Source of the DNA: Streptomyces sp. SCSIO 30461
Lineage (GTDB): Bacteria; Actinomycetota; Actinomycetes; Streptomycetales; Streptomycetaceae
Assembly (NCBI RefSeq): GCF_037023745.1
Contig: NZ_CP146101.1
Span: 2,596,001 to 2,660,000, forward strand
Length of the DNA stretch: 64,000 bases
Reading direction: 5' to 3'
Position 1 is the first letter of the stretch, and every line of letters begins with the position of its first letter. Below are positions 47,641-55,860 of this stretch, piece by piece. The notes beneath the pieces were generated by a model, which saw nothing but the letters and a program-made list of their open reading frames with translations, ran no database searches and was not told where the DNA came from. The translations under genes and the position numbers were made by a program.

Positions 47641-48639
47641 CTACTGAGAGCGCGGCGGCAGTGCGGCGACGGCCCAGGTCCCGGTCACGGCCCGCAGGGC
47701 CTCGGCCGCGCGGGCGGCACGCGACGGGGACGTCCGTACGGAATTGCTGAACTCGACGTGGAGGAACGGAGCGTCCTCCCGCTCCGCCTTGCGGCCCTGG
47801 ACGTTGCTGCGTCCTTCCAGCGGGCAGTCACGGGTCCAGGCCCTGCACACCGCGAAGCCGCGGTCGCGCAGCGCGTCGGCGAGCACACGACCCTCGGCGC
47901 GCGCCAGATCGCCGCTGCCGGTGGATGCGATCGCATCGTGCTCGGGCGCGGAGTCGTTGGCGAAACCGTGCAGCTGGACGGCAGGCATCCCGCGCTCGGC
48001 GAGTTCGTCGCAGATGGCGTCGAAGACGCTGTCGGTGCGGTGCGCCACGTCGGCGGCGTCCCCCTTCCCTGCCGCGCGGTGTGCTCCCGCGATCACCAGC
48101 ACTCCGCCGGGGGCCCCTCTCAGTACGTTCACCCCCAGCAGTTCGGTGCGCCGGTCGGCCAGCGGGTGCGGCACCTGAACCGACCAGCGCAGGGGGGCGG
48201 AGAGATCGACATAGACCCGGCCCCAGCCCCGGGGCGACCGTGCGTCCTCGCTGCGGTCGGCGATCTCCGCGTACTGCCGGCCGGCCGAGCCGTCCGTGAT
48301 CGTGCGGATGGTGAAGTCCACGTCGGACAGCCGCTGCTCGGCCCGCGAACGCTGTCCGTCGACGAGCAGGGCCACGCCCTCGGCCACGGCCTCGCGTTCT
48401 TTGCTGCTGGGCCGCCGGTACCCGCTGTCCTCACGGAACCGGGATGTGAAATCGGCTACTCGCCGCTCGAGATCCGCAGCTCGGCCGCCAAGACGGTTGG
48501 TGCCGCCACTCCCCGGCCCTGTACTCTCCGTTGAGTCAAGGCCATTGGTCCAACCCGTCAGTAGCAGAGTCAGTGCGACGGCGACCGCAATGAGCAGAGT
48601 TGCCGCAATTGTTACCGTCTTGGTTCGGTTGATCGTCAT
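47641..48639 (-). CDS. Exported protein beside the PGA-like cluster, possible zinc hydrolase
   Basis: A 332-residue protein with an N-terminal membrane helix (VTIAATLLIAVAVALTLLLT) and an outside domain. The outer part is not a family I can name with certainty. VLVIAGAHRAAGKGDAADVA, AVQLHGFANDSAPEHDAIAS and FLHVEFSNSVRTSPSRAARA give spaced His/Glu residues resembling the zinc and base positions of M14-like or phage poly-gamma-glutamate hydrolases. Its start is 20 bases from the divergent CapA-like gene, so both are controlled from one spot. If the cluster makes a gamma-glutamyl polymer, this could be a degrading enzyme; that is inference from position and weak motifs. Confidence 0.55.
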   Translation of the reverse strand: MTINRTKTVTIAATLLIAVAVALTLLLTGWTNGLDSTESTGPGSGGTNRLGGRAADLERRVADFTSRFREDSGYRRPSSKEREAVAEGVALLVDGQRSRAEQRLSDVDFTIRTITDGSAGRQYAEIADRSEDARSPRGWGRVYVDLSAPLRWSVQVPHPLADRRTELLGVNVLRGAPGGVLVIAGAHRAAGKGDAADVAHRTDSVFDAICDELAERGMPAVQLHGFANDSAPEHDAIASTGSGDLARAEGRVLADALRDRGFAVCRAWTRDCPLEGRSNVQGRKAEREDAPFLHVEFSNSVRTSPSRAARAAEALRAVTGTWAVAALPPRSQ

Positions 48640-48659
48640 AGCTGTATAAAGATATCCAG
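48640..48659. promoter_or_regulatory. Very short divergent promoter region
   Basis: Only 20 bases separate the start codons of two divergent genes. TATAAA at 48645-48650 lies 9 bases before GTG 48660, and on the other strand TATCTT (48655-48650) lies 10 bases before ATG 48639. No ribosome sites fit in the gap. Both genes may be expressed as leaderless mRNAs from back-to-back promoters whose -35 boxes lie inside the opposing genes. Confidence 0.35.
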
Positions 48660-49871
48660 GTGATGAAACGCTTCTCGCACCGGTCGCTGACGGCCTCCGC
48701 CGCCACCCTTGTCCTCTTGTCCGGTACCGCCGCCTGCGGACCGTTCGGCTCGGACGACGCCAAGGCGGCTCCGGACAGTGGCAGCCCCACCTTCACGGTC
48801 GCCGCCGCCGGTGACATCCTCATCCACCCGCAGCTCATCGAGCAGGGCCAAAAGGACGCGAAGGAGACCGGCAAGGGCGTCAGCGGGATCGACTTCGACC
48901 CGCTGATGGCCGGGATCAAGCCCGTCATCAGCAAGGCGGACCTCGGGATCTGCCACCTTGAGCCCGTGCTCGGCAAGCCCGAGGGGCCGTTCGAGGGCTT
49001 CCCGACCTTCCTGGTTCCGCCGCAGATCACCACGACGATCAAGAACGTGGGCTACGACACCTGCTCCACCGCTTCGAACCATGTGCTCGACCACGGTTAC
49101 AACGGGGTCGTGCAGACCCTGAACGCGCTGGACGCGGCGGGCCTGAAGCACACCGGGTCGTACCGGACCGAGGCGGAGGCGGCCAAGACGATGATCGTCG
49201 ACGTCAAGGGCGTCAAGGTCGCCCAGCTCTCGTTCGCTCTCGGATTCAACGACTTCGAGGTCCCCAAGGACAAGCCCTGGCTCGCGAACGAGATCGAGTT
49301 CAAGGCGATCGCAGCCGCCGAGAAGAGAGCGCGTGACGCCGGTGCCGAGGTCGTCATCCTCAGCCTCCACTGGGGGCGTGAGCACTGGCCGAACCCGAGC
49401 CGATCGCAGCTCCAGCTCGGTCGCAGGATCGCCAAGGAGACCGGTGTCGACCTGCTCATCGGCCATCACGCCCACGTGGTGCAGCCGATGGAGAAGGTCG
49501 ACGGAACCTGGATCGCCTACGGCCTCGGCAATCAGGTCGCCCGGCACGACGTGCCCAGCGGGCTGACCGAGGAGGGTGTCATCGGCTGGTTCGAGTTCGC
49601 CAAGCGTGGCGGCAAGTGGGACGTGCAGGCGAAGTATGTGCCGACGTTCGTGGACATTCCACCGGATCCGGATGAGTCGGGCAAGCTGCCCGAAGGCGCG
49701 GTGAAGGACTACCGCCTCATCGACATCGCCGCCACCCTGCGTGATCGCAAGGGCCTCGGTGACGAGCAGATCGCCCGCTACCGCCTGGCGTTCGAGCGCA
49801 CGGAGGGGACGATGCTGAACCGGGGGGCGGTGAAGGACGGCCTCGTACCCCTGGAGGCTCTTCCGGACTGA
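48660..49871 (+). CDS. CapA/PgsA-like lipoprotein
   Basis: A 403-residue exported lipoprotein of the bacterial CapA family (metallophosphatase-like fold). The lipobox is LSGTAACGP near residue 25. Family motifs are VAAAGDILIHPQLI, ICHLEPVLGKPEGPF, STASNHVLDHGYNGV, VILSLHWGREHWPNPSRSQ and LLIGHHAHVVQPM, with the His/Asp/Asn metal ligands preserved. In Bacillus, PgsA/CapA is needed for synthesis and release of poly-gamma-glutamate. GTG 48660 and ATG 48663 are adjacent; neither has a ribosome site, so a leaderless start is possible. The cluster continues downstream with PgsB- and PgsC-like genes, but a 273-base gap and a sensor-like gene intervene. Confidence 0.87.
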   Translation: MMKRFSHRSLTASAATLVLLSGTAACGPFGSDDAKAAPDSGSPTFTVAAAGDILIHPQLIEQGQKDAKETGKGVSGIDFDPLMAGIKPVISKADLGICHLEPVLGKPEGPFEGFPTFLVPPQITTTIKNVGYDTCSTASNHVLDHGYNGVVQTLNALDAAGLKHTGSYRTEAEAAKTMIVDVKGVKVAQLSFALGFNDFEVPKDKPWLANEIEFKAIAAAEKRARDAGAEVVILSLHWGREHWPNPSRSQLQLGRRIAKETGVDLLIGHHAHVVQPMEKVDGTWIAYGLGNQVARHDVPSGLTEEGVIGWFEFAKRGGKWDVQAKYVPTFVDIPPDPDESGKLPEGAVKDYRLIDIAATLRDRKGLGDEQIARYRLAFERTEGTMLNRGAVKDGLVPLEALPD

Positions 49872-50144
49872 CCTTGCCATGGCCCGCTCGTGTTCTTGAT
49901 CACATCGAATTCGTACAACCGATTGATCGTGGTTCCTGTCTGACATGCGTGGCTCCTGGAGGGGCGCCATGCGGCTTGAGCCGTGCCCGACCCGAGGGTG
50001 CCGCTGCGCCCCGTGTCCAGGTTTCGCTCCGGGTTTCACATCCGGGTTCCGTGCCCGGATCTCCATGACTCTCGAAGGATGAGGTGCTCCGTCTTGGCCG
50101 CTTCGACCGCGAAGCGGCGGCATAAGGTCCGCCGAAGGGCTGAC

Positions 50145-52370
50145 ATGTCCTTGATAGGTGGAATACGTCCGCCTATCGCCGTACTGTCTGTTCTGCTCCT
50201 TGCTCTGGCGGGCATAACCGCCCTCTCTCTCGGCCGTGTCGGAAGCGACCGCGTGCCCCAAGCCGTCATGACGTCCCAGCAGCACTTCGCCGAGGACGGC
50301 GCCATCGGCCTGCGCGCCTCCATCGACGAGAGCGTCACCGACCTGACGCGTACGGCCGAGCTCTTCAACGCGGCCGACCCGGCACCGGCGGACGCCGTCC
50401 TGGACAAGCTGGGCAACGTGTACCAGAAGTGGCTGGGCACGGCCGTCGTCGAGATCAAGACCGGCAAGCTCCTCGCCGCACGCGGCGAGAACGTCCCCCT
50501 GCCCGCGATCGACCGTTCCAAACTCAGCGACGAGAACGGTCTCGCACCGCGCATGGTCCGGCTCCAGAACGGCGAGACCCGACTGCTCGCCTTCGCCGTG
50601 CTGCATTGGCAGGGGCAGCCGCAGAAGCTCCTCGTCGCGTCCAGCGGGCTGAAGTTCCCCGGGATCAGCCTCGGCGGTTTCCGCTCCATCGCCGTGCTCG
50701 ACCAGCAGGGCACCGTGCTGAGCCAGGACGGCATCCCCGAGCCCGAGCAGGTGAAGTCCGAGTACGAGCGCGATGAGGCCGCCGAGTCCAGGCGCGAGCT
50801 GAAGGCCTTCGCCAAGACCGTGGCCCAGAAGGCCCGGGAGCACCCCGTCAAGGCCAAGGAACCCGGTGCCGGCGGGTTCCTCGGCGTCAGCGGCAGCCTC
50901 ACAGGCGGCCGCTACCTCGGTGACCGCTCCATCGCCGGATACGCCACCCTCGCGGGACCCACGGCCGGTGAGTCGACCGTGGCGACCAGCCTGGGTCTCA
51001 CCGTCGTCGCCATGGTCAAGGTCGGCGAGGACCCCACGGTGACCAGCAGCCCGGTGTTCGGCCTGGCCGCCGCCGGCGCGCTGCTCCTCATCGGAGGCGT
51101 GACCGTGGCATTCCTGATCGGCACCGTGCAGCGCCCGCTGATCCGCCTGTTCCTGGAGAGCCGGCGCCTCAGTCGCGGTGACCTCACCCGCCCGGTCACC
51201 TCGCCCCGCTACGGCGAGGCGGCACGGATCGGCGCCGCTCTCGAACGCCTGCGGCGGCAGCTCCAGGGCGAACCGGCCGAGGCTCCGGCCACACCCCGGC
51301 GCCGGCGCCTCGGCGCTCGGCTCCTGCTCGGCGTCTGCGCGGTGCTCCTGCTGGCCTGGTCCGCTCCGCTCCTGCTCGTGCTCAACCGGGCCGGCGACAC
51401 CGTCGTGGTGCCGCAGCAGATCGTGAACGACCAGCGCGAGCGCACCGACACCCTCAGCGACCGGGTGCGCAGGGCGCTCAACGAGGGCCACGCCGACCTC
51501 ATGTCGGTGGCCGCCCTGCTCGGCGACCGGACCAAGCCGGACCAGATGACCGAGGTCCTCAAGCGGACCATGGCGCAGCACCTGCGGTACGAGACGATGT
51601 ACGTCCTCGACGGGAACGGCACCGTGCTCGCCCAGGCGGGCGGCGAACCGCACACCACCCCGGGCAAGGGCCCGTCGGGCGATCAGATCCGCGTCCTCGA
51701 CACGGGCAAGGAGCCGGTGATCATCGGCACCGCCGAGGTCAACGGCCGCAAGGGCGCTGCCGTGGTGGGCGAGTTCCGCATCGACTTCCTGAACTCGCTG
51801 CTCAAGCGGCCGGGCCTGGGTGAGGTGCGGGTGGTGGATGCGCAGCGCCGTGTCCTCGCGGGCAACAACGGCTACTTCGCCTTCGAGAAGCTGCCGAGCG
51901 CCCGTCTGGAAGGGCTGGCCAACGGAGCCAACCGGAAGGCCGGCACGAGTACGCGGCCCAGCGGTGTGCTGTTCCGGGACGGCGACGACATCCAGATCGC
52001 CGGTGCGGCTCCCTTCGCGGGCGGTGGTGCGGCGAAGTCCCTCGGCTGGACCGTCGTCAGCTGGCAACCGGCATCCGGTCTGAAGATCCCCGAGTACCAC
52101 CGCCAGAACCTCACGGTACTCGCGGGTCTGCTCGGCGTCACCGCTGCGACGGCGTGCCTGGGCTGGCTCCACATCATCGTGATCCGGCCGCTGCGCGCCC
52201 TCGCCGACCAGGCGGAGGCGCTCGCGGACGGAGACCGCCGCACCGTTCTGTATCCGCGCCACCACGACGAGGTGGGCGCCGTCGTCCGCAGCCTTGAGCT
52301 GATCCGGCAGCAGCTGCCGGGACAGCAGCGCAAGCGCGACGGCATGACCTCCCTCGCCGGAAGGAACTGA
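50145..52370 (+). CDS. Dual-sensor HAMP membrane protein without output domain
   Basis: A 741-residue membrane protein built from two similar halves. Each has a membrane helix (about 9-32 and 390-413), an outside sensor-like region of 225-270 residues, a second helix (about 304-328 and 656-680) and a HAMP linker (about 329-375, VQRPLIRLFLESRRLSRGDL; about 681-725, VIRPLRALADQAEALADGDR). The outside regions look Cache/PAS-like (IAVLDQQGTVLSQDG; MYVLDGNGTVLAQAG). No kinase, cyclase or methyl-accepting domain follows either HAMP. ATG 50145 follows GAAGGG and is preferred over upstream in-frame starts. It precedes the PgsB-like gene by 5 bases, so it is part of the polymer operon. It may sense or guide export; function unproven. 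Confidence 0.75.
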   Translation: MSLIGGIRPPIAVLSVLLLALAGITALSLGRVGSDRVPQAVMTSQQHFAEDGAIGLRASIDESVTDLTRTAELFNAADPAPADAVLDKLGNVYQKWLGTAVVEIKTGKLLAARGENVPLPAIDRSKLSDENGLAPRMVRLQNGETRLLAFAVLHWQGQPQKLLVASSGLKFPGISLGGFRSIAVLDQQGTVLSQDGIPEPEQVKSEYERDEAAESRRELKAFAKTVAQKAREHPVKAKEPGAGGFLGVSGSLTGGRYLGDRSIAGYATLAGPTAGESTVATSLGLTVVAMVKVGEDPTVTSSPVFGLAAAGALLLIGGVTVAFLIGTVQRPLIRLFLESRRLSRGDLTRPVTSPRYGEAARIGAALERLRRQLQGEPAEAPATPRRRRLGARLLLGVCAVLLLAWSAPLLLVLNRAGDTVVVPQQIVNDQRERTDTLSDRVRRALNEGHADLMSVAALLGDRTKPDQMTEVLKRTMAQHLRYETMYVLDGNGTVLAQAGGEPHTTPGKGPSGDQIRVLDTGKEPVIIGTAEVNGRKGAAVVGEFRIDFLNSLLKRPGLGEVRVVDAQRRVLAGNNGYFAFEKLPSARLEGLANGANRKAGTSTRPSGVLFRDGDDIQIAGAAPFAGGGAAKSLGWTVVSWQPASGLKIPEYHRQNLTVLAGLLGVTAATACLGWLHIIVIRPLRALADQAEALADGDRRTVLYPRHHDEVGAVVRSLELIRQQLPGQQRKRDGMTSLAGRN

Positions 52371-52375
52371 CGACC

Positions 52376-54286
52376 GTGCTCTTCCTCTACGTAGTGCTGG
52401 TGGCGTGCAGCGTCATCCTGCTGATCGCGGGGATCATCGAACAGCGGCGGCACTTCGCCAATCTGGAGAACATCCCTTCCCGGGTGCTCGTCAACGGCAT
52501 CCGCGGCAAGTCCTCCATCACCCGGCTGTGTGCGGGAGCCCTCCGGGGCGGCGGACTGACCACGGTCGCCAAGACCACCGGTACGGCCGCCCGCTTCATC
52601 CACCCCGACGCGACCGAGGAGCCCGTCTACCGCAAGTTCGGCATCGCCAACGTGGTCGAGCAGATCGGCATCGTCCGCCGGGCCGCCGCGTACAACCCCG
52701 ACGCGCTGGTCATGGAGTGCATGGCTGTCATGCCCGCCCTCCAGGAGATCAACCAGTCCAAGCTGATCCGCTCCACGATCGGCGTGCTGTGCAACGTCCG
52801 TGAGGACCACGTCGCCGAGATGGGCCCGACGCTGGACGACATCGGCCGTTCGCTGTCCCGCTCCATGCCGCACGGCGGCATCTGCGTCACCGCGGAGAAG
52901 GAACGTTTCCACGTTCTCCAGGAGGAGGCCGACAAGCGTGACTGCCAGCTGATCTACGCGGACCCCGAGATCGTCACCGACGAGGAGCTGCGCGGTTTCA
53001 GCTGGTTCACCTTCAAGGAGAACGTGGCGATCGCGCTGGTCGTCGCCGACCTGCTCGGCGTGGACCGCAAGACCGCGCTCCAGGGCATGTACGACGCCCC
53101 GCCGGACCCGGGCGTGCTGTCCGTCGAACGGTATGTCACCCAGGACGGCAAGAAGCTGCGCTTCGCCAACGTCTTCGCGGCCAACGACCCCGAGTCGACG
53201 CTGATGAACATCAACCAGCTCCTCGACCTCGGCGCGATCAACCGCCCGCTGAACGTGGTGATCAACTGCCGTCCCGACCGTGTCGAGCGCAACGGTCAGA
53301 TGGGCCAGATCGTGCCGGACCTCGAACCGGACAAGGTGTTCGTGATCGGCCACCCGGCCAAGAGCGCCATCGACGCGATCCCGGCCGAGTGGCGCGACCG
53401 CGCCGTCGACCTCGGCGGCGAAGGACGCGACGGCGAGGAGTTCATGCACGAACTCATCGGACACCTCGGCCCCGACTCCTCGCTCGTGGCCATCGGCAAC
53501 ATCCACGGCCAGGGCGAGATACTCCTGGAGCACCTGGCGGAGCTCCCGGCCGACGAGAGCGCAGCAGGCGAAGCCTCCCCGAAGCCCACCGGCGCCGAGC
53601 CGGCAGCGGACGAGCCCGGTCTGCAGGCGGCGCCGGCGCATCCGGAGCACAGCGAGACGATGCAGCTCTACGCGCCGCGTATCGACCCGTACCAGCAGTA
53701 CCCGGAGTCGTACGAGAACCGGTACACCGTACGGCGCGCCGTGCCCCAGCAGCGCGGCGACTGGGCGCCTCAGGACGCCGTACAGCACGCCGACCCGTCC
53801 CACGGCGGCGAACCGCAGGGCGGTGTGCCGCACCTGCCGGCCGCGTACGACGCGGCGCTGCCGTCCGGTGACCCGCAGTCCTACGCGGGTGTGCCGCACC
53901 TGCCGGCCGCGTACGACGCGGCGCTGCCGTCCGGTGACCCGCAGTCCTACGCGGGTGTGCCGCACCTGCCGGCCGCGTACGACGCGGCGCTGCCGTCCGG
54001 TGACCCGCAGTCCTACGCGGGTGTGCCGCACCTGCCGGCCGCGTACGACGCGGCGCTGCCGTCCGGTGACCCGCAGTCCTACGCCGGTGTGCCGCACCTG
54101 CCGGGTCCGGACGGCCGAGAGCCCCGGTACGGCGACGGTGCCTCGGCGCAGCCCGACGGATCGTGGGCCGCCGCACGCCGGAACGAGGAGCCACGCGGGC
54201 TGTTCGAGCCCCGTGTGCCGCCGACGCCCGTCACCCCTTCCACCGACGACCCCCAGCAGTGGTACAGCTCAGGAGAGCCCCGTTGA
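52376..54286 (+). CDS. PgsB/CapB-like amide ligase with long repetitive tail
   Basis: A 636-residue Mur-ligase-like ATP-dependent amide ligase. An N-terminal membrane helix (LFLYVVLVACSVILLIAGII) is followed by the P-loop GIRGKSS at 41-47, then ALVMECMAVMPALQEINQSK, VREDHVAEMGPTLDDIG and VVINCRPDRVERNGQMGQIV, all characteristic of PgsB/CapB, the poly-gamma-glutamate polymerising subunit. Those proteins end near residue 400-460; here about 200 extra Pro/Ala/Tyr/Gln-rich residues follow, including four near-identical 22-residue repeats (483-570). GTG 52376 is 5 bases after the sensor gene. The ligase core is intact; whether the monomer is glutamate is not shown. Confidence 0.87.
   Translation: MLFLYVVLVACSVILLIAGIIEQRRHFANLENIPSRVLVNGIRGKSSITRLCAGALRGGGLTTVAKTTGTAARFIHPDATEEPVYRKFGIANVVEQIGIVRRAAAYNPDALVMECMAVMPALQEINQSKLIRSTIGVLCNVREDHVAEMGPTLDDIGRSLSRSMPHGGICVTAEKERFHVLQEEADKRDCQLIYADPEIVTDEELRGFSWFTFKENVAIALVVADLLGVDRKTALQGMYDAPPDPGVLSVERYVTQDGKKLRFANVFAANDPESTLMNINQLLDLGAINRPLNVVINCRPDRVERNGQMGQIVPDLEPDKVFVIGHPAKSAIDAIPAEWRDRAVDLGGEGRDGEEFMHELIGHLGPDSSLVAIGNIHGQGEILLEHLAELPADESAAGEASPKPTGAEPAADEPGLQAAPAHPEHSETMQLYAPRIDPYQQYPESYENRYTVRRAVPQQRGDWAPQDAVQHADPSHGGEPQGGVPHLPAAYDAALPSGDPQSYAGVPHLPAAYDAALPSGDPQSYAGVPHLPAAYDAALPSGDPQSYAGVPHLPAAYDAALPSGDPQSYAGVPHLPGPDGREPRYGDGASAQPDGSWAAARRNEEPRGLFEPRVPPTPVTPSTDDPQQWYSSGEPR
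53822..54085 (+). repeat. Four 66-bp tandem repeats inside the PgsB-like gene
   Basis: Units start at 53822, 53888, 53954 and 54020 and are identical except for one base at the last codon of the fourth; a fifth, partial unit starts at 54086. Each encodes GVPHLPAAYDAALPSGDPQS plus YA. Near identity, including silent positions, points to recent expansion, so copy number probably varies between strains without frameshift (66 is a multiple of three). Confidence 0.97.
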
Positions 54287-54765
54287 TCCCCTCCGTCCTC
54301 ACCCCCGAGATCGCCGCGGTCGGCATCGCCCTCGGGCTGCTCTTCTCCCTGGTCTGCTATCTGACGACCAACCTCTCGCCCGGCGGCATGATCACCCCCG
54401 GCTGGCTGGCGCTCACCCTCGTCGAGGACCTGCAGCGCGCCGCGATGGTCGTCGGCGTCACCGTGCTCACCTACGTGTGCACCCTGCTGCTCCAGCGCTA
54501 CGTCATCCTCTACGGCAAGCGCCTGTTCGCCGCGGTCGTGCTGACCGGTGTGATCCTCCAGGCCTCGCTGATGATCGTGCTCTCCATCGAGTTCCCGCTG
54601 ATGTACAGCAACCAGACGCTCGGGTTCATCGTCCCCGGCCTGATCGCCTACCAGCTGGTGCGCCAGCCCAAGGGCCCCACGCTGCTGGCCACCGGCTCGG
54701 TGACGCTGATGGCCTACGTCGTCCTCACCGCCGGGATCCTCCTCGGCTTCATGCCGTCCGCCTGA
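54283..54765 (+). CDS. PgsC/CapC-like membrane protein
   Basis: A 160-residue membrane protein with four or five hydrophobic segments. LGLLFSLVCYLTTNLSPGGM and ITPGWLALTLVEDLQRAAMV match the PgsC/CapC hallmark, and LGFIVPGLIAYQLVRQPKGP the second conserved block. Bacillus PgsC is about 149 residues and partners PgsB in the membrane synthase complex. TTG 54283 overlaps the upstream stop (TTGA) and follows AGGAGAG, so translation is coupled; longer in-frame starts would lie inside the PgsB-like gene. The pair strongly supports a gamma-linked polypeptide synthase. Confidence 0.85.
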   Translation: MIPSVLTPEIAAVGIALGLLFSLVCYLTTNLSPGGMITPGWLALTLVEDLQRAAMVVGVTVLTYVCTLLLQRYVILYGKRLFAAVVLTGVILQASLMIVLSIEFPLMYSNQTLGFIVPGLIAYQLVRQPKGPTLLATGSVTLMAYVVLTAGILLGFMPSA

Positions 54766-54786
54766 CCGTCCACCGGAGTCGACCTC

Positions 54787-55860
54787 ATGAGTGCCAAGAA
54801 GAAGTCCCGCGCCGTCGTCCACGCGGCGGTGGTGATCTCCCTGCTCGCCGGCAGTGCCTATCTGACCGTCGAGCTACGCAAGGAGGAGCAGGCCAAGGCG
54901 CCTGCGGTCCAGGCCGTCACGGACTCCCCGGTGCTCGAGTCGAGTACCGGGCAGGTGAGCGGAAAGCAGACCTGGGAGCGCCTGAAGAACCCGGACCGGT
55001 CGGTGCTGCGGGGCGAGGGCGGGCAGGTTCTCGCGACCTTCACCGACCGCGCCCGTACCGCCACTCTCAAGGGCCCCAGCCGTACCTTCACCGAGGCCGC
55101 CAACACCAAGTCGCGTGTGGTTACCGAGGACTGGGTGCGGCTGATGCCGGAGACCTGGCGCAAGGGCGCCGAGAAGGAGAAGTGGTTCAAGGACTGGTTC
55201 AAGGAGTTCTTCGGCAGCGAGGAGGACGACATCTTCGCCAGCGCCTTCCAGTACATCGAGGGTGCTCCGGTCAAGAAGGACGAGGAGGGCACCTCCTACG
55301 CGGGCGACGCCAGCTTCGGTCCGCTCAACCCGAACGGCAGCGCGGGCAACGACCTGCGCGAGGAGCTGTCGGACTTCTACGACTACCTCATGATCCCGTA
55401 CACCTTCCGTGACGGCACCAGCAAGCAGCCCGAGGACAAGCGCGCCCGTTCCGTCGACTGCTCGGGCTATATGCGCCTGGTCTGGGGCTACCGGGTCCGC
55501 TATCCGCTGGCCTCGTCGGACACGACCGGGGACGGTCTGCCCCGCACCGCGAACGGCATGGCCCGTTCCAAGCTGGGCGCCGACGTCATTCCGCTGAAGG
55601 GCGTCGCGGCCAAGGACCGGCCCAAGTCCATCGATGTGCTCCAGCCGGGCGATCTGGTCTTCTTCAAGCTGGACGCCCGGACCAAGGACCGGCTCGACCA
55701 TGTGGGCATGTACCTCGGCCATGACGGCGACGGGCACAAGATCTTCATCTCCAGCCGGGAGGAAGTGAACGGCCCGACGATCGGCGACAAGGGCGGTACC
55801 TCGCGACTGGACGGAAACGGGTACTACGCGACCACCCTGCGCAGCGCGAAGCGCCTCTAG
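54787..55860 (+). CDS. NlpC/P60-family peptidase
   Basis: A 357-residue exported or membrane-anchored protein with an N-terminal helix (VHAAVVISLLAGSAYLTVEL) and a C-terminal NlpC/P60 domain. The catalytic Cys225 is in RSVDCSGYMRLVWG and the His305 in DRLDHVGMYLGHD; a third polar residue follows near IFISSREE. NlpC/P60 enzymes cut gamma-D-glutamyl bonds in peptidoglycan, and Bacillus PgdS, a member of this family encoded near pgsBCA, degrades poly-gamma-glutamate. ATG 54787 lies 21 bases after the PgsC-like gene. It is the last gene of the cluster; a very strong terminator follows. A release or trimming role for the polymer is likely. Confidence 0.85.
   Translation: MSAKKKSRAVVHAAVVISLLAGSAYLTVELRKEEQAKAPAVQAVTDSPVLESSTGQVSGKQTWERLKNPDRSVLRGEGGQVLATFTDRARTATLKGPSRTFTEAANTKSRVVTEDWVRLMPETWRKGAEKEKWFKDWFKEFFGSEEDDIFASAFQYIEGAPVKKDEEGTSYAGDASFGPLNPNGSAGNDLREELSDFYDYLMIPYTFRDGTSKQPEDKRARSVDCSGYMRLVWGYRVRYPLASSDTTGDGLPRTANGMARSKLGADVIPLKGVAAKDRPKSIDVLQPGDLVFFKLDARTKDRLDHVGMYLGHDGDGHKIFISSREEVNGPTIGDKGGTSRLDGNGYYATTLRSAKRL

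Follow-up and report, generated by a model that had tools for sequence, protein, structure and literature searches.

Here we describe a locus of Streptomyces sp. SCSIO 30461, located in a 64,000-nucleotide stretch of genomic DNA (the window), in which a synthase of the poly-gamma-glutamate (gamma-PGA) type is encoded together with its own putative membrane receptor. With moderate confidence we read the synthase itself as the output of this receptor and two predicted hydrolases as agents of polymer release or trimming, a reading for which we infer the product, the ligand, the receptor-synthase contact, the hydrolase substrates and the direction of regulation. What the analysis shows directly is which genes are present and in which order, how they co-occur, the assignments of domains and folds, and the duplication. 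No paper on this cluster was found by title or abstract start, in open-licence PMC full text, and as far as such searches go both the PgsB lineage with its invariably linked, output-less receptor and the synthase-linked protein family with a PghP-type fold are new. The arrangement makes the action of an output-less HAMP receptor testable, the candidate effector being the product of the constant next gene, and it suggests that the synthase may answer directly to signals from outside the cell. If Streptomyces makes gamma-PGA, a large producer group (45 of 150 species genomes) would be added to a field that has been built mostly on Bacillus.

A sequence-only reading of the region had listed five ORFs on the + strand, and their coordinates were reproduced along with the gaps of 5, -4 and 21 bases in the series receptor, PgsB, PgsC and NlpC/P60; all features given below lie on this strand unless stated otherwise. 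That gene list overlooked a sixth gene on the - strand (47641..48639), which is divergently oriented to capA and is referred to here as the divergent gene, as well as the repeat-bearing tail of PgsB. The capA gene precedes the receptor gene by 273 bases, and its annotated start lies about 20 bases from that of the divergent gene. The short interval between the two (48640-48662) contains a TATAAA sequence; leaderless transcripts or shared promoters are possible at this place, and scans for promoters and terminators were uninformative.

PgsB, the gamma-PGA synthase ligase (52376..54286, 636 aa), scores 383.3 bits against the curated NCBIfam model TIGR04012, whose cut-off of 222.7 bits was passed by Bacillus subtilis alone among 14 control genomes, and its P-loop GIRGKS (aa 41-46, 52496..52513) is present in 80 of 80 relatives; a sequence search of solved structures with PgsB returned no match. 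The protein ends in a low-complexity tail (53561..54283) that includes an in-frame tandem repeat at 53822-54104 (66-bp unit, 4.3 copies, 99% by TRF). PgsB length varies from 411 to 661 aa in the 80 relatives, and several of the tails share a stretch resembling QLYxPRIDPYQxY. The gene overlaps by 4 bases with that of a PgsC-like membrane protein (54283..54765, 160 aa, TTG start), which matches the CapC family PF14102 at 122.3 bits (cut-off 27) and reaches 74.1 bits against TIGR04011, under the curated cut-off of 96.45. According to a passage in PMC5542703, a gamma-PGA synthase is recognised by the joint presence of CapB and CapC, with CapA and CapE as accessory components; here the CapB and CapC homologues overlap and CapA is encoded in the same locus. 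The earlier view of the enzyme as a gamma-linked polypeptide synthase finds support in the curated PgsB model and in the divergent neighbour, the fold of which resembles that of gamma-PGA hydrolases. A ligase with another gamma-linked or amide polymer as its product, or one that modifies a wall component, would be compatible with a PgsC below its curated cut-off, with the long branch (0.78) leading to the receptor-linked PgsB clade and with a hydrolase fold that is common to N-formylglutamate amidohydrolase, but we regard it as highly improbable given that PgsB stands 160 bits above its selective cut-off and that gamma-PGA hydrolases are among the closest folds of the divergent protein.

The receptor (50145..52370, 741 aa from the ATG at 50145) consists of two TM-dCache-TM-HAMP units in tandem. 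Pfam recognises HAMP (PF00672) in two stretches at 47.6 bits (cut-off 25) and dCache_1 in the second module only, at 24 bits against a cut-off of 45; the AlphaFold2 model (pLDDT 83.7) reveals a sensor module in both halves. The first extracellular module (aa 39-294, 50259..51026) is denoted dCache-like on the basis of the model and the homology of the two halves, and is followed by the first HAMP domain at about aa 325-375 (51117..51269, limits approximate), placed from one of the two HAMP stretches and from helices of the model at 304-343 and 357-373. The second dCache module (aa 424-642, 51414..52070) is supported by the Pfam match below cut-off and by the model, and 17 residues remain after the second HAMP match (aa 678-724, 52176..52316). 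A HAMP domain and an extracellular dCache domain, by which we class the protein as a dCache-HAMP receptor, are thus both found, and the description of a dual sensor without an output domain stands: Pfam at E 0.1 yields only HAMP and dCache_1 and no signalling output domain. The extracellular dCache fold is shared with receptors and kinases such as PctA, CtaA, Mlp24 and KinD; in contrast to these, the Streptomyces protein has no kinase or chemotaxis output. Another parallel is AF1503 of Archaeoglobus fulgidus, in part of PMC3585426 a HAMP protein without output, which likewise is a HAMP-terminated membrane protein devoid of an output domain and whose HAMP domain was matched. Compared to AF1503 as it appears there, the Streptomyces receptor carries two dCache-HAMP units per chain and has a constant neighbour that could serve as its output.

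PgsB is encoded in 45 of 150 Streptomyces genomes (about three in ten), and the receptor is present in every one of the 45. The receptor query matches 49 genomes in total; the other four (G076, G135, G140 and G145) give short and weak matches (E 8e-5 to 9e-4) and were excluded from the count. Each of the 48 further places with PgsB in the genus has the receptor gene directly before it (partial in L116), a set that leaves out the window's own copy and a 29-residue PgsB remnant in G009; the gaps range from -25 to 56 bases and 46 of them are within 30. PgsC is found at 47 of these places, NlpC/P60 at 44, the divergent gene at 38 and CapA at 29, with one locus (L098) stopping at a contig end. Such recurrence of receptor and PgsB is far more than chance. 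Loci fetched by means of the receptor, 80 in number and partly overlapping the 48 places, stem from 79 Streptomyces records and one Actinomycetes MAG; PgsB and PgsC occur in all of them, NlpC/P60 in 79 (L178 lies at a contig end), the divergent gene in 71 and CapA in 48. The receptor is also present in eight of eight further loci, hand-picked and mostly divergent or second PgsB copies, including extra copies at other sites; one of these (L288) has a receptor nearer to a single-unit form. We conclude that the receptor is not incidental to the PgsB locus. The source genome, a single contig of 8.05 Mb, has one PgsB. Other carriers of the locus include the soil species S. coeruleorubidus (L233) and S. 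noursei (L199). The remnant in G009 belongs to a relic second locus (L118, G009:C1:9178000-9186500), in which NlpC and PgsC accompany short leftover pieces of PgsB and of the receptor.

A receptor this constant, at 48 of 48 loci against 29 for CapA, and with no output domain, might be a structural subunit of the synthase that guides the chain or sets its length, taking the part of PgsA or PgsE, instead of a working sensor. We consider this unlikely: both HAMP domains and both sensor modules are kept, a single-unit form from another class retains HAMP and a dCache region, and the genomes encode CapA relatives at other sites.

In a 45-row PgsB tree, the receptor-linked sequences form one clade, a branch with support values of 99/97 separating their 30 rows from the rest; the L158 locus carries the receptor. 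In the order, 72 of 293 genomes have receptor-type PgsB, and 71 of these belong to the genus. Among 396 genomes of the phylum, PgsB exceeds the cut-off in 21, and full-length relatives of the receptor are encoded in six, each of which also has PgsB. The six comprise four Streptomyces genomes, G517 and G339, where the relative comes as two pieces with a stop. Partial matches within residues 139-379 were obtained from four other phylum genomes, and 15 of the 21 PgsB genomes have no receptor. The proposal that the sensor belongs to the locus, against which its absence from most relatives would speak, is supported for Streptomyces, with all 45 PgsB genomes, and does not extend to actinobacterial PgsB loci in general. 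In G517, which belongs to another class (receptor-type PgsB in 2 of 39 genomes of that class), a single-unit receptor adjoins a PgsB of 68% identity; at this locus (L156:2450-4348) two receiver-like genes, one of them confirmed as PF00072, lead into the receptor gene with an overlap of 14 bases, and PgsB, PgsC and two PghP-fold genes follow.

Another partner of the receptor is possible in G517, and the constant adjacency of receptor and PgsB would fit any co-regulated partner as well. The receptor could signal to a partner encoded elsewhere, such as a kinase, a cyclase or a response regulator, which controls the operon at the level of transcription or activity, adjacency reflecting co-expression only. 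HAMP proteins as a rule pass signals on to separate signalling domains, and the receiver-like pair that runs into the G517 receptor gene is in keeping with such an arrangement; none of the ten window proteins scanned with Pfam is a kinase or other output protein, however, and receptor, PgsB and PgsC stay joined while the other neighbours vary, which leaves the separate partner in our estimation a real but rather doubtful prospect. The constant pairing with an output-less sensor suggests that the synthase itself may be the target, and we read PgsB/PgsC as the output because the receptor gene ends 5 bases before pgsB and the ten window proteins offer no other output candidate. A rate correlation was dropped as evidence of receptor-PgsB contact since NlpC correlates with the HAMP protein more strongly (0.94) than PgsB does (0.86).

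With the synthase as the receptor's output, the following sequence of events can be envisaged. An extracellular ligand would bind the double dCache-HAMP protein, and its cytoplasmic HAMP bundles would pass the signal straight to the PgsB/PgsC complex. The P-loop of PgsB sits behind an N-terminal membrane segment, and the active site should therefore face the cytoplasm, as should both HAMP bundles. PgsB as a membrane-anchored cytoplasmic ligase and PgsC would then carry out synthesis and export of a polyglutamate chain, with CapA encoded either in the locus or at another genomic site, and the PghP-fold and NlpC/P60 proteins, each with one N-terminal membrane segment, would cut the polymer extracellularly for release, length control or recycling. 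More tentatively, and with a good deal less confidence than in the overall scheme, the dual dCache region might respond to gamma-glutamyl oligomers, or to a different surface cue, that the two hydrolases set free, such that a HAMP-PgsB contact switches synthesis on or off with neither a kinase nor transcription involved.

The CapA-like protein (48660..49871; the ATG at 48663 may be the actual start) has a lipoprotein-like N-terminus and matches PGA_cap (PF09587) at 217 bits (cut-off 27). It is the least constant neighbour, and the idea that all five genes stay together fails on its account. The CapA family is represented in 135 of 150 Streptomyces genomes, with or without PgsB, and loci without CapA may therefore use a copy from elsewhere; the notion that function does not require CapA was rejected, as every genome with a CapA-less locus has a relative elsewhere. 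The source genome has a second PGA_cap match away from the locus (G000:C1:7868510-7869358, 251 bits). The NlpC/P60 protein (54787..55860; PF00877, 33 bits, cut-off 23) has an N-terminal TM segment and the residues Cys225, kept in 73 of 77 rows, and His305, kept in all 77; PgdS is an NlpC/P60 protein too. At four loci (L189, L193, L196 and L198) the catalytic Cys is replaced by Ser, and the same four have neither the divergent gene nor CapA. Three receptor-less actinobacterial loci (L151, L152 and L157) have NlpC/P60 relatives, 35-38% identical, in divergent orientation before PgsB.

PgsBC loci are known from many phyla (PMC5542703 and PMC4497714, in part). The Streptomyces locus resembles pgsBCA(E) with pgdS of B. 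subtilis, described in a section of PMC4497714 as the system of released gamma-PGA, in having a PgsB by the curated model, a PgsC-like and a CapA/PgsA-like protein and an NlpC/P60 protein beside the synthase. It differs in the dual dCache-HAMP receptor before PgsB, the second, PghP-fold hydrolase candidate, a CapA that is optional and comes first, and the low-complexity tail of PgsB. In 12 of the 15 receptor-less PgsB genomes of the phylum the order is PgsB-PgsC-CapA followed by a glutamyltranspeptidase (L148-L155, L157 and L159-L161), of which the one scanned scores 374 bits against PF01019 and shares 49-62% identity with the other 11; the remaining three loci (L162-L164) have a different arrangement. 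These 12 loci and the capBCADE type of Bacillus anthracis have the PgsB/PgsC core and the CapA family in common with the Streptomyces locus, whereas a CapD-type glutamyltranspeptidase is missing from the ten window proteins that were scanned and the receptor from the 12 loci. CapD may be encoded elsewhere in a genome, as stated in a portion of PMC5542703. The earlier suggestion that the polymer may belong to the cell wall instead of being released finds no support here: such an enzyme is not among the ten scanned proteins, and two hydrolases are predicted. Two predicted extracellular cutters would be a better fit to release or length control than to a permanently anchored polymer.

The divergent gene encodes a membrane-anchored protein of 332 aa with one TM segment (aa 9-27), a candidate gamma-PGA hydrolase by its model, fold matches and conserved residues. 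Neither Pfam nor NCBIfam matches it at E 0.1; the hydrolase family PF05908 in particular matches neither this protein at E 0.1 nor any other in the source genome, and the one match in a sequence search of solved structures (E 0.42) was taken as chance. The AF2 model (pLDDT 89, 64 rows) has the PghP fold. Of its top three Foldseek matches, one is a putative carboxypeptidase and the other two are gamma-PGA hydrolases of phages; VIA lists the N-formylglutamate amidohydrolase 2q7s (14.8), 2odf (14.6), PghP 3a9l (14.5), the phage PM1 hydrolase 21dc (14.3) and PghL 5onj (13.7), with carboxypeptidases from 12.7 down. A carboxypeptidase-type assignment was thereby abandoned in favour of the PghP/N-formylglutamate amidohydrolase group; the similar VIA scores mean that the fold alone does not tell a gamma-PGA hydrolase from an N-formylglutamate amidohydrolase. 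All 64 family rows share the residues H158, D162, H224 and E296, and these follow the order of His41, Glu46, His102 and Glu165 of PghL (YndL), which an excerpt of PMC6506827 reports as zinc ligands and general-base Glu, naming 2odf and 2q7s as structural neighbours of PghL too. Profile comparison against 11 members of PF05908 gave a weak match (probability 15.8%, E 0.0016), its alignment pairing HGF224 and VE296..R302 with the HG and EL..R of PF05908. Compared to PghP and PghL, the protein does not match PF05908, has Asp for Glu, other spacing, a membrane anchor and an extra N-terminal part, and is linked to a synthase.

The family tracks PgsB. The divergent gene was detected in 43 of 150 Streptomyces genomes, 39 of them among the 45 PgsB genomes and 4 among the 105 others; it is absent from six PgsB genomes, the four matches in PgsB-less genomes are weak or fragmentary, and several matches in the genus survey contain a stop. 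This is opposite to the PghP-like genes outside Bacillales, which in the relevant passage of PMC4497714 are mostly without pgsB, PghP occurring with pgsB in 13% of cases. The divergent gene represents a candidate new family of gamma-PGA hydrolases. Among the 38 divergent ORFs in the 48 loci, 27 display the literal motifs PHP, HGF and LHVE or LHLE in one frame, and the L071 copy is in pieces. The gene is downstream in L207 and L227, and the two copies in L156 come after PgsC. One PgsB-less genome (G150) has a fragment of the gene. In G339 (L130:2304-3188) the beginning of PgsC is joined in frame to a protein of the PghP fold, by deletion or as an assembly artefact. Finally, in three genomes of one genus (f6/g8; L248, L249 and L250) a PF05908 domain follows about 150 residues that begin near YFAYGSNL, an arrangement suggestive of a gamma-glutamylcyclotransferase fusion.
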